Assembly (NCBI RefSeq): GCF_019966595.1
Contig: NZ_JAINFJ010000004.1
Location: 124,001-188,000 of the forward strand
Direction: 5' to 3'
DNA from: Oricola indica
GTDB taxonomy: Bacteria > Pseudomonadota > Alphaproteobacteria > Rhizobiales > Rhizobiaceae
Length of the DNA stretch: 64,000 nucleotides
Shown: positions 4,336-29,602 of the stretch, piece after piece
Layout of the letters: each line of letters starts with the position of its first letter
Position numbering within the stretch: position 1 is the stretch's first letter
Translations under genes and position numbers: made by a program
Notes under the pieces: generated by a model
The model's database searches: none
Seen by the model: only the letters and a program-made list of their open reading frames with translations
Told to the model about the DNA's origin: nothing

Positions 4336-6695
<2,360 letters not shown>

Positions 6696-19938: not shown

Positions 19939-20089
19939 CACATCACGAAATCGCCGTCGCGCAAAATCCGTTTCCGTGCTCGCGTAAAAACCGGGGAGAT
20001 CGCTCGCCGCATTTCCGCCCGGTTGAGTGCCGAAACCCCCTCCGGAGAGAATTGCCCTCGATCATCGAAAAAATGGAAAAGGTCCGCAG

Positions 20090-20746
20090 ATGAAACGTCT
20101 CGTCAAAATCGTCGCTGTCGTGGTGCTGGCAATCGTCGTCGCCGGGCTTGCCTATGGCGGCAAGGGCTATCTCGACGCGCTGGCCGACGCCGACCAGTTG
20201 CGCGTACGCGCCGACGCGCTGATCGCCGACGGGCGCGGCGGCAACGATCTGGGCGAGGGCCGGCTCGACGATCTTCTCAAGGTGCAGGACCCGGCCTTCC
20301 GCGACCATGGCGGCATCGACATGAGCACGCCCGGCGCCGGGGTCACCACCGTTACACAGTCGCTTGCCAAGCGGCTCGCGTTTGAGAATTTCCGTCCCGG
20401 CATCGGCAAAATCCGCCAGACCGGCTACGCACTCGGCCTCGAGGCGCGGCTTTCGAAGGGCGAAATCATGGCGCTCTGGCTCGATACGCTGGAGATGGGC
20501 CGCGGACCGGATGGCTGGATGACCGGGTTTTTCGACGCATCGCAGACGATTTTCGGCGCGCCGCCGGCCGAGATCGGCCGCACGGAATTTCTCAAGCTCG
20601 TTGCCGTGATGATCGCGCCGGGAAAATACGACTTGCAGGGCACGGACGCCGAATTGGTGGAAAGGACGGCACGGATCGCACGCCTGACGAAAGGCGAATG
20701 CGCGCCGCTCGACAACGGCGATGTCTGGCTCGAAGGCTGCCGGTAG
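20090..20746 (+). CDS. GT51-like transglycosylase domain protein, probably altered active site
   Basis: A 218-residue protein with an N-terminal signal anchor (residues about 4-22, rich in Val/Ala) and a short GT51 (peptidoglycan glycosyltransferase) domain. Motif 1 reads VQDPAFRDHGGID (Gln-66 where the catalytic Glu of EDxxFxxHxG is expected); motif 2 reads GVTTVTQSLAK; motif 3 region reads RQTGYALGLEARLSKGEI (Gln-110 where the second conserved Glu aligns by eye). FFDASQTIFGAPPAEI matches the following conserved stretch. It lacks a transpeptidase domain. By this reading both catalytic glutamates are Gln, so it may be a non-catalytic relative. The start at 20090 is preferred over 20027. Confidence 0.75.
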   Translation: MKRLVKIVAVVVLAIVVAGLAYGGKGYLDALADADQLRVRADALIADGRGGNDLGEGRLDDLLKVQDPAFRDHGGIDMSTPGAGVTTVTQSLAKRLAFENFRPGIGKIRQTGYALGLEARLSKGEIMALWLDTLEMGRGPDGWMTGFFDASQTIFGAPPAEIGRTEFLKLVAVMIAPGKYDLQGTDAELVERTARIARLTKGECAPLDNGDVWLEGCR

Positions 20747-26013: not shown

Positions 26014-27198
26014 TTATGCGGCGGCGATCTTGCCCTTCATAATTCGCGTGTTCTGTTCATGGACGGTCACTCGGTTGCGCCCGTTCCGCTTGGCCCGGTA
26101 GAGGGCCTTGTCGGCCATATGGACGGCTTCCGGGAACGGCGCGCCGGCAGGCCAGCAGGCGATACCGAAACTCGCCGTCACGGTCGCGCCGTCGACACAA
26201 TCCTGATTCAGCGCCTCAAGCGCGCACCGGGCGGATTCGGCATAAAGACGGGCCAGAGCGGGGTCCGCTGCCGCGAACACGACCATGAACTCCTCTCCGC
26301 CCCAGCGCACGACGAGATCGTCCTCGCGGGCGGAACAATCGAGAATCCGGGCGAAATTCGTTATCACCCTGTCGCCAGCCTCGTGTCCGTAACGGTCGTT
26401 GATCGATTTGAAGCGATCGATATCGGCCATGATCACCATGCGGTCCTGACCGGCGGCGAAGCCGGTGACGCGCGACTCCAGCCCGCGCCTGTTCAGGACC
26501 CCCGTCATCGGATCTGTCTCGCTGGTTTCGGTCAGCCCGGCGACGATTTCCATTCCGAACATGACGAACAGGTTCACGGCAATTGCCAGCGCCGCGAAGG
26601 AGACCGAGAGCTGAAATGTCAGCGCGGCCGCCGACTGCGGATAATTGGCCTGAGTGAGCGTTCCGCCCTCGAACCAGATCACAACAAGCGTGCGCACCAG
26701 CAACTGAAGACCGTTCAAAAACACCAGGGCCTGCAGGACGCGGTCGACCTTTCGGCGCATCTCCCGCCTCAAGGCGATGGCGGGATAGGCGAACAGCACG
26801 AACCCGCCGGCGTTCATCAGCAATGTTCGCGCCGCGATCATGTCATGGCCGAACCGGAACCAGGTCAGAAGGGCGAGCATGCAGACGGAAACGCCGACCA
26901 GCGCACGCACGGGTACGCGTCCGCGATAAAAGACGAACATGGCCGCGCTGAAGGTCGCGGCTGTGGCCGCATAGACCGGGTTGATGACAAATATCGCAAC
27001 GTCCGGCGACAGCAGCGGCCGTATGAAATCGCCCAGCAAGCCGATAGCCCCGAGGAGGTAGGAAAAGGCGAAGACCTTCAATGCGCGGACCTCGCGCGCA
27101 AAATGCCACAAAACGGCGAACCCGCAGGAAAACACCAGGAAGATCATCGGGCTGATCAACTGAAAGTAGGACTGTTCCTGCACGACCCCTGACCTCAC
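26014..27198 (-). CDS. Membrane diguanylate cyclase (GGDEF)
   Basis: A 394-residue inner-membrane protein with seven or more hydrophobic segments (about residues 10-220) and a C-terminal GGDEF domain (about 225-394) that would make cyclic di-GMP from GTP. The catalytic motif is RWGGEEF at residues 298-304, and an inhibitory I-site RxxD (Arg-291 to Asp-294) lies five residues before it, so product inhibition is likely. The N-terminus matches the sister gene at 28316 (EQSYFQL), and translation may start at a GTG at 27183. The pair flank a carrier gene. Confidence 0.9.
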   Translation of the reverse strand: MRSGVVQEQSYFQLISPMIFLVFSCGFAVLWHFAREVRALKVFAFSYLLGAIGLLGDFIRPLLSPDVAIFVINPVYAATAATFSAAMFVFYRGRVPVRALVGVSVCMLALLTWFRFGHDMIAARTLLMNAGGFVLFAYPAIALRREMRRKVDRVLQALVFLNGLQLLVRTLVVIWFEGGTLTQANYPQSAAALTFQLSVSFAALAIAVNLFVMFGMEIVAGLTETSETDPMTGVLNRRGLESRVTGFAAGQDRMVIMADIDRFKSINDRYGHEAGDRVITNFARILDCSAREDDLVVRWGGEEFMVVFAAADPALARLYAESARCALEALNQDCVDGATVTASFGIACWPAGAPFPEAVHMADKALYRAKRNGRNRVTVHEQNTRIMKGKIAAA

Positions 27199-28315: not shown

Positions 28316-29494
28316 TCAGGCGACGGCGGATGCCTGTCCTGCCGGGTCCAGGCCGTCGACACAGACGCGGTTTCGGCCCTCGCGCTTGGCGCGGTAAAGC
28401 GCCACGTCCGCACGGCGCCCGATGACCCGGACATCGCGGTTGTTCTCGCAGGCGGCCACACCGAAACTCGCCGTGACCGTACGGCCGCCGAGACAGTCAT
28501 GCGCGAACGCTTCCCATCGGGTCCGCACGCCCTCGGCGAATAGCCGCGCCGCCGCGGCGTCGGCATGGGAAAGGATAACCAGAAACTCCTCGCCGCCCCA
28601 GCGGACGACGAAATCGCCTTCGCGCGCGGCATCGCACAGGAGACGCGCAAACGCGCTGATGACCAGATCGCCAGCCTCGTGACCATAGCGGTCGTTGACG
28701 GCCTTGAACCAGTCGATATCAGCCATGACGACAGCCCGGGAAGAACCGCCCGCCTGTCCGTCGCGGACAAATGAATCGATGCGCGCCTCGAAACCCCGCC
28801 GGTTGAGCGTGCCGGTCAGCGGATCGGTTTCGCTGCTTTCGGTCAGCCTCCGCAGAATTTCGGTGCCGTACATTGTGAACAAAGCGCCGGCGACGGCCAG
28901 TGAGACGACGGCGAGCAGCATCTGCAGCGTCACCGACGCCAGAGACCCCGCATAATCGGTATCCGCCATTGTCGCGCCGACGAACCAGAAGATCACACCC
29001 GTGCGAAGAAGAAGCAAAACGACGCTGGCCACGATCACCGTTTGCAGGATTCGGTGGATCCCATCCCGCATCTCGTGGCGCAGTGCATGGATCGCGTGGA
29101 GATAGATCAAGGCGAGGCCGGTATTGATGGCCCATGCGCTGGGGACGACATTGGAGAGGCCGTATCGCAGCGCCGCATAACAAACCATCACTGCCGCTGC
29201 GGATATCGTCAGTGTTTTCCACGGTACCCGGTTCCGGTAACGCGCATGGAGGCCCGCGCAGAAGAAGACGGTTGTCGCAAGGTATAGCGTGCTGAGAACC
29301 GCAGAGGCGACACCCGGATAAAACGCGGACTGCAGAAAATCCACGATCATCGCGCAGGAAGCGGCGAAATAGGAAACCGCGAAGAAGCGCAACGAACTGA
29401 TATCGCGCGCAGTTCGCCACAGCAGGAGAAACCCGCCCGAAAAGGTGAGCGAGATCAAAGGTGTCAGGAGCTGAAAGTAAGACTGCTCGAACAT
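28316..29494 (-). CDS. Membrane diguanylate cyclase (GGDEF), paralogue
   Basis: A 392-residue paralogue of the protein at 26014-27198. The start at 29494 (MFEQSYFQLLTPLI) matches the sister protein's EQSYFQLISPMI; an upstream in-frame ATG at 29539 is not supported. It has a multi-helix membrane region, then GGDEF with RWGGEEFLVI and an intact I-site (REGD, five residues ahead). Both active and inhibitory sites are conserved. The two genes probably arose by tandem duplication with the carrier between them. The sensed signal is unknown. Confidence 0.9.
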   Translation of the reverse strand: MFEQSYFQLLTPLISLTFSGGFLLLWRTARDISSLRFFAVSYFAASCAMIVDFLQSAFYPGVASAVLSTLYLATTVFFCAGLHARYRNRVPWKTLTISAAAVMVCYAALRYGLSNVVPSAWAINTGLALIYLHAIHALRHEMRDGIHRILQTVIVASVVLLLLRTGVIFWFVGATMADTDYAGSLASVTLQMLLAVVSLAVAGALFTMYGTEILRRLTESSETDPLTGTLNRRGFEARIDSFVRDGQAGGSSRAVVMADIDWFKAVNDRYGHEAGDLVISAFARLLCDAAREGDFVVRWGGEEFLVILSHADAAAARLFAEGVRTRWEAFAHDCLGGRTVTASFGVAACENNRDVRVIGRRADVALYRAKREGRNRVCVDGLDPAGQASAVA

Positions 29495-29602
29495 CCGTCT
29501 ATCCGGTTGGCTGCACGCGGCGGCCATCGTGTCGGGCAAAATGACTAGCAGGCCCCGCTTGCCATCCCGTTAATCGTGGGCTGCGCGGCGTTCGAATTGA
29601 AT

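Follow-up and report, generated by a model that had tools for sequence, protein, structure and literature searches.

A GT51-like protein of Oricola indica with glutamine at both catalytic glutamate places, and its family of putative pseudoenzymes

The GT51-like gene and its two catalytic positions

The window, i.e., the whole stretch of 64,000 nucleotides of Oricola indica DNA analysed here, carries on its forward strand a gene for a short, single-domain protein related to the GT51 glycosyltransferases. Its features are listed below, with counts taken over 34 aligned family members (window protein included) and over canonical GT51 controls.

20090..20746, + strand: ORF P0001, 218 aa, putative GT51-like pseudo-glycosyltransferase (ATG start, Pfam match, dN/dS 0.178 against the Oricola nitratireducens gene, L006)
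20075..20082, + strand: GGAAAAGG, Shine-Dalgarno-like, likely ribosome-binding site 7 nt 5' of the ATG (inferred from sequence)
20105..20173, + strand: hydrophobic N-terminal stretch, about residues 6-28, likely a single transmembrane anchor within predicted helix 2-46
20282..20320, + strand: motif I, residues 65-77, VQDPAFRDHGGID; D67, H73 and G75 (34/34 each) and D77 (33/34) retained
20285..20287, + strand: Q66 at the first catalytic Glu place (PBP1b E233, SaMGT E100); family Q 18, E 14, A 1, V 1; controls E 49/49
20321..20338, + strand: shortened flap, residues 78-83, six residues separating motifs I and II in 34/34
20339..20374, + strand: motif II, residues 84-95, GVTTVTQSLAKR; Q90 (34/34) and K94 (32/34) retained; S91 (29/34) at the PBP1b Q271 place, R95 (30/34) at the N275 place
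20381..20419, + strand: rewritten motif III, residues 98-110, FENFRPGIGKIRQ; family-specific F98 (33/34), F101 (31/34, Y in 2), P103 (30/34), G104 (33/34)
20417..20419, + strand: Q110 at the second catalytic Glu place (PBP1b E290, SaMGT E156); family Q 33, L 1; controls E 49/49
20612..20614, + strand: I175 at the PBP1b K355 place; family I 32/34, K 0/34; controls K 47/49
20699..20701, + strand: C204, first of two conserved C-terminal Cys (32/34)
20738..20740, + strand: C217, second conserved Cys (32/34), possibly joined to C204 by a periplasmic disulfide

Up to E = 1, Pfam gives a single match, PF00912 (Transgly), which scores 57.3 bits (cut-off 27) and covers profile positions 64-174 only, and the same scan detected no class A PBP transpeptidase domain in the 218 aa. 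The protein misses the equivalog cut-off of TIGR02070 (MtgA, the monofunctional biosynthetic transglycosylase) with 31.6 against 182.65 bits, and the NCBIfam models of PBP1c, PBP1a and the monofunctional enzymes all score far under their cut-offs. The closest solved sequences are E. coli PBP1b (E 7.4e-07) and A. aeolicus PBP1a. A model predicted from a 37-sequence alignment (AF2) reached a pLDDT of 89.5 and a pTM of 0.86, 33 of the 37 rows being canonical GT51 domains from viral contigs that may bias it toward this fold. In it a helix at residues 2-46 leads into the lysozyme-like head and jaw of GT51; its best structural match is 3vmt_A, the S. aureus monofunctional enzyme SaMGT together with an analogue of lipid II (Z 18.3, rmsd 2.8, 194 aligned residues, 20% identity). 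PBP1b matches at Z 15.6, and unrelated rows lie below Z 3. An earlier model from four family sequences (pLDDT 64.3, below 50 at residues 74-115) gave the same fold family (Z about 9), and the pocket was read from the 37-row model instead. The membrane anchor proposed in a preliminary description of this DNA is supported by both the sequence and the predicted helix.

The same description had placed Q66 and Q110 at the two catalytic glutamates, and both assignments are borne out: Q66 by profile-profile alignment (hhalign, 99.6% probability) and MAFFT alignments, Q110 by an ungapped phmmer alignment to E290 of E. coli PBP1b, by hhalign and by MAFFT. PBP1b residue numbers, E290 among them, were reached by counting from E233. 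The proposed check of orthologues for Gln at both sites comes out positive at site 2, where Gln stands in 33 of the 34 members, Leu in one (L061) and Glu in none; at site 1 it does so for just 18, the others having Glu (14), Ala (1) or Val (1). A pattern seen across 34 members rules out a sequencing error or a lone variant. Glu occupies both sites in every one of the 49 canonical controls, which come from the host genome and from further Alphaproteobacteria; 22 of them were excised by an ED..F/Y..H pattern (which all 22 passed) and 27 by profile, and, retrieved by similarity, they are mostly alphaproteobacterial class A PBPs and not a random GT51 sample. E. coli PBP1b E233Q, the change naturally present at Q66, is described as GTase-defective in the covered part of PMC7943195, and passages of PMC4632607 and PMC7400108 name E233 as the key catalytic Glu and E290 as catalytic. 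Among viral-contig GT51 domains outside the controls, one (L127:1501-2049) seems to have Asp at the second place (RKLTD), so that Glu at site 2 is not universal in GT51.

The host genome (5.09 Mb) encodes four further GT51 proteins (L001-L004), all Glu/Glu, and its polymerising capacity is thus covered. One of them, the likely MtgA (L004, C37:324622-325116, a 321-aa frame), is monofunctional like the window protein and shares its cell, but differs in having Glu at both sites and a spacer of at least 18 residues, and in branching outside the family.

Active-site losses and the family tree

According to the preliminary description the fold-defining motifs were kept, which is not simply so: TQS..KR replaces TQQ..KN in motif 2, GKxRQ replaces RKxxE in motif 3, and little remains of the segment that links motifs 1 and 2. 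From motif I (HxGxD) to motif II the spacer is six residues in all 34 members and 18-24 in the controls (19 in 45, 18 in two, 22 in one and 24 in one of the 49), i.e., the flap is shortened by about 13 residues across the family. Section 1 of PMC6053601 presents this flap as a helix-loop that divides the donor from the acceptor site and as a proposed regulator of translocation. Single positions have changed as well: the PBP1b Q271 place has S in 29/34 (canonical Q in 1), the N275 place R in 30/34 (N in none) and the R286 place G in 21/34 (R in 4, hence replaced in 30), while the K355 place has Ile in 32/34 and Lys in none (Lys in 47/49 controls). R192, the equivalent of R372, is retained in 34/34; the equivalents of K355 and R372 were numbered through the ungapped phmmer alignment, which reaches residue 183 and was extended beyond it for R372. 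Part of PMC8119973 credits these two residues with tuning the pKa of E233.

These sequences point strongly to a loss of catalysis: a protein that has neither a general base nor a second Glu, and lacks a flap dividing donor from acceptor sites, would not be expected to polymerise lipid II. The pseudo-transglycosylase proposed at the outset is therefore well supported, both Glu being lost here and the second in 34/34, with the flap, R286 and K355 also gone.

A tree of the 34 members with eight canonical rows (tree 1) places the members together on one side (support 99/98), 29 of them in a main group (89/99), and a second tree of 20 members with 12 canonical and 19 viral-contig GT51 rows (tree 2) has the members on one side of a branch supported at 100/100, with a stem length of 2.26; both carry long-branch warnings (L061, L062, L004 and others) and leave many of their inner forks open. 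Those outside the main group include L055 and L060, both Glu/Gln (site 1/site 2), and L008, which is Gln/Gln; L056, which is not in the tree, is again Glu/Gln. The site-1 Gln label changes six times on the best tree (6-8 over bootstraps), of which well-supported branches alone force only one. This suggests that the loss at site 2 came first and was followed by loss at site 1, perhaps on several occasions.

The 34-row alignment (A2) omits a second record of the window gene (L009), a record from the genome of L007 (L010), a sequence with many N (L018), two broken copies (L020 and L053), near copies (L040, L052 and L059), L056, the plasmid hits H4-H10 and L087-L090. The gene in L087 is that of L006, L089 and L063 are identical DNA over the stretch compared, and L088 and L090 are Q/Q; in another genome of the window's genus the Oricola nitratireducens gene is found without a single changed letter.

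The presence of Glu at site 1 in 14/34 members could point to an enzyme with altered chemistry or substrate, for example a lysozyme-like or hydrolytic single-acid reaction in these members, or transfer onto another polyprenyl-linked sugar. Features shared by GT51 heads and phage lambda lysozyme (PMC6053601, section 1) are consistent with this, as is the site-1 Glu of L055, L060 and L056 outside the main group, although a repeated Glu/Gln switch is not firm. Members with the first Glu are nevertheless still without the second Glu (absent in 34/34), the flap and the Lys that tunes the site-1 Glu (K 0/34), and in the window protein both sites are Gln, so that we consider an altered enzyme clearly unlikely.

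The retained pocket and its possible ligand

SaMGT has a deep pocket formed by D101, H107, G109, D111, Q129, G130, G131, S132, T133, Q136 and K153, which adjoins the lipid II analogue, holds part of a second moenomycin and is linked to docking of the lipid II pyrophosphate (PMC6053601, in the sections covered). At these eleven places, in order from D101 to K153, the 34 members have D 34, H 34, G 34, D 33, A 31 (canonical residue lost), G 34, a variable residue (lost), T 32 (S to T), T 32 with S 2, Q 34 and K 31. Thus eight of the eleven places are canonical in at least 31 members, one has a conservative change (S to T, 32/34) and two are lost, as is the flap. Mean entropy is 0.396 for the pocket columns and 1.41 for columns 50-200, and none of 20000 random column sets was equally low, which, the rows being related, is a description and not a probability. 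D101N and Q136E abolish polymerisation by SaMGT (PMC6053601, section 4.1), and the matching residues here, D67 and Q90, are invariant (34/34). The pocket is not kept by every member, as the distant L061 lacks K94 and carries Leu at site 2.

Based on this combination of losses and retention, our preferred reading, to which we give a probability of about one in two, is that of a non-polymerising GT51 pseudoenzyme that may act as a docking module or adaptor for a polyprenyl-pyrophosphate ligand. Docking is favoured because most of the pyrophosphate pocket is frozen and because SaMGT E100Q still binds moenomycin in crystals (PMC6053601, in the part covered). Under this reading the protein would be a periplasmic, membrane-anchored, monofunctional GT51 shell, a member of a distinct and laterally moving family, with a cleft that would now be open and single-site for want of a flap. 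Less certainly, lipid II, a nascent chain end or undecaprenyl pyrophosphate could dock in the pocket formed by motifs I, II and III, and the protein might then sit as a binding module beside the normal GT51 enzymes of the cell, modulating them or locally holding precursor. The process so served is speculative, and the reading also allows for membrane-anchored binding of cell-wall synthases. Against it stand the missing flap, the first Glu retained by 14/34 members, the incomplete pocket of the distant L061 and a gene neighbourhood that, over the loci and neighbours covered, shows no sign of cell-wall synthesis.

The main rival holds that the GT51 fold serves as a pure scaffold for protein contacts (for example with class A PBPs, MtgA or division proteins), with no lipid ligand and a pocket kept for stability. 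Folding could be what retains the pocket residues, and the conservation of columns is inflated by the relatedness of the rows. Canonical lipid II binding may have been lost too, since the flap, with residues needed in SaMGT, is gone: the SaMGT flap mutation L119N-F120S abrogates interaction with both lipid II and moenomycin (PMC6053601, section 4.1). Absence of the flap in 34/34, together with the replacement of most residues at the R286, Q271 and N275 places (R 4, Q 1 and N 0 of 34), fits a scaffold well, as do the conserved patches that are specific to the family, i.e., F98, F101, P103 and G104 ahead of motif III, the DVWLEGC segment at the C-terminal end and the two Cys. It accounts less readily for pocket columns far more conserved than background and for the invariance of two residues that matter for activity in SaMGT, and we regard a pure scaffold as a serious, if rather less likely, explanation.

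Compared with known systems, the docking module that we favour resembles SaMGT (3VMT, 3VMQ, 6FTB) in its single GT51 domain, N-terminal membrane helix and overall fold, and in the equivalents of D101, H107, G109, D111, G130, T133, Q136, K140 and K153, retained in at least 31/34 family members; it differs at the E100 and E156 places (the latter changed in 34/34), in the replacement of most residues at the R152, Q137 and N141 places and in the 18-residue flap (by D111/G130 numbering), cut to six. With the GT domain of E. coli PBP1b, its nearest PDB sequence match, it shares the fold and motif order, but it has no transpeptidase domain and has Q66, Q110 and I175 for E233, E290 and K355. The site-1 change is identical to that of the laboratory GT-dead mutants PBP1b E233Q and SaMGT E100Q, except that here it is natural and comes with a second Glu to Gln change and loss of the flap.

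Selection, distribution and transfer

The nine closest pairs of family genes gave dN/dS of 0.088-0.194 (0.178 for the window gene against L006), values that indicate purifying selection on the family. All 31 pairs with dS < 1.5 gave a median of 0.277 and a maximum of 0.82. Broken copies do occur: L020:1300-2000 has a frameshift, L053:1501-2154 an internal stop, a Shinella record holds a C-terminal fragment, and on Tistrella mobilis pTM1 a second copy (G1076:C2:388475-388729) is shortened to residues 1-85, with an intact copy on the same contig. From the broken orthologues L020 and L053 it seems that some hosts can do without the gene. The remnants could speak for a decaying, functionless relic, but this is largely refuted by the dN/dS of the closest pairs and by unbroken frames in all 34 aligned members, and we find it barely credible.

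Counting full or broken members and the host's own genome, the family occurs in 12/151 genomes of the taxonomic family, 19/347 of the order sample, 3/385 of the class sample, 7/398 of the phylum sample and 3/6 of the genus; the samples may overlap, and the count for the taxonomic family was made by score and span, since the raw tally takes in canonical GT51. In the class search with A2, whose specificity is lowered by two distant rows (L061 and L062), 61/385 genomes matched and three were counted as members (the host, G1076 and G941), the other 58 comprising 27 canonical Glu/Glu proteins and 31 judged by score and frame length only. L062, in the phylum sample, is a weak match (79 bits), and a Leucothrix MAG of the Gammaproteobacteria has a 37% relative. 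Ten plasmid records, seven from Azospirillum, two from Agrobacterium and one from Tistrella, hold relatives at 61.9-68% identity. Viral contigs scanned once with A1 yielded no relative. Six very large IMG/VR contigs of 242-513 kb (L134, L137, L145, L146, L149, L154) hold GT51 domains with EDPGFxxHxG, GGSTITMQLAKN and RKxxE and both Glu present, which may be cell-wall polymerases of jumbo viruses or lie on mis-sorted bacterial contigs.

Over 28 genome pairs we compared identity in this protein with that in SdhA. G070 and G286, which belong to different families, share 89% in this protein vs 72% in SdhA, and each is likewise closer to Tistrella (G1076) in this protein (85% vs 70% for G070 and 86% vs 74% for G286), so that the gene has moved between orders. 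The direction is opposite in the 15 pairs among the window genome, G842, G070, G119, G085 and G419 (56-72% vs 81-93% in SdhA).

The surroundings of the gene vary between loci: among 27 loci no neighbour cluster occurs at more than four except ABC-transporter ATPases (seven loci, a large superfamily). The sdh genes lie nearby at four loci (window, L006, L072, L074), and the remaining clusters recur at two or three loci, many between close relatives; PriA and a 217-aa neighbour are common to the window and L081. At 4/27 loci (L064, L065, L067, L086) antisense frames masked the gene itself in ORF calling. A Pfam scan of 30 chosen neighbours returned housekeeping or unrelated proteins (CcmB, YidC, PriA, GAPDH, transporters, an MBL fold, a PF00905 protein with a class D beta-lactamase annotation, TerB) and left five without a match. 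Neither the 27 clustered loci nor the 30 scanned neighbours hold genes pointing to cell-wall synthesis. Upstream, a stress-sigma promoter was considered and rejected: within 200 nt the EcfG-like consensus GGAA...GTT was found at 1/35 loci only.

A patchy single gene that sits on plasmids and has moved between orders might also be a horizontally spread protection gene, either a decoy for moenomycin-type GT51 inhibitors or a shield of lipid II against antibiotics that bind it. In SaMGT the second moenomycin site overlaps with the jaw pocket that is retained here, and on plasmid p2 of A. tumefaciens F2, typed as conjugative, the relative adjoins a divergent gene annotated as class D beta-lactamase (L064:4986-5783, 5917-6609). 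That annotation was found beside L064 alone among the members looked at, and the 30 neighbours hold one such protein, one with a metallo-beta-lactamase fold and one TerB, each at one locus and with no recurring theme. The flap is moreover missing and the R286, Q271 and N275 places, which belong to the main moenomycin site, are mostly replaced, making a protection gene quite improbable.

Joining transfer to the docking reading, we put forward, as a doubtful extension, that this could be a horizontally mobile family of lipid II-binding pseudoenzymes that gave up polymerisation and the flap and retained the pyrophosphate dock, with plasmid-borne single genes resetting how the polymerases of a recipient use lipid II or shielding lipid II from outside attack. 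Such a family, if real, would be nature's parallel to the E233Q and E100Q mutants made in the laboratory. GT51 enzymes comprise the polymerases of class A PBPs and are the target of moenomycin, and such a family would separate docking from catalysis and translocation, which are joined in working enzymes.

The fold, the superfamily and the Glu to Gln form (in laboratory mutants, PMC7943195 and PMC6053601, in the parts covered) are already known, and a natural pseudoenzyme family is apparently undescribed: among the full-text literature matches listed no title points to one, most subscription journals lying outside the coverage. PMC8546619 lists the GT enzymes of Agrobacterium tumefaciens as four class A PBPs and MtgA, and the family member found on two A. 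tumefaciens plasmids is not on that list in the parts covered. In public plasmid records these proteins go by the names 'transglycosylase domain-containing protein' or 'glycosyl transferase', a warning for annotation, as these names suggest an activity that is most likely absent.

Elsewhere in the window, on the reverse strand at 26014-27198 and 28316-29539, lie two similar membrane proteins about 1.1 kb apart, likely paralogues, each with a GGEEF-like end, GGEEF being a motif of diguanylate cyclases.
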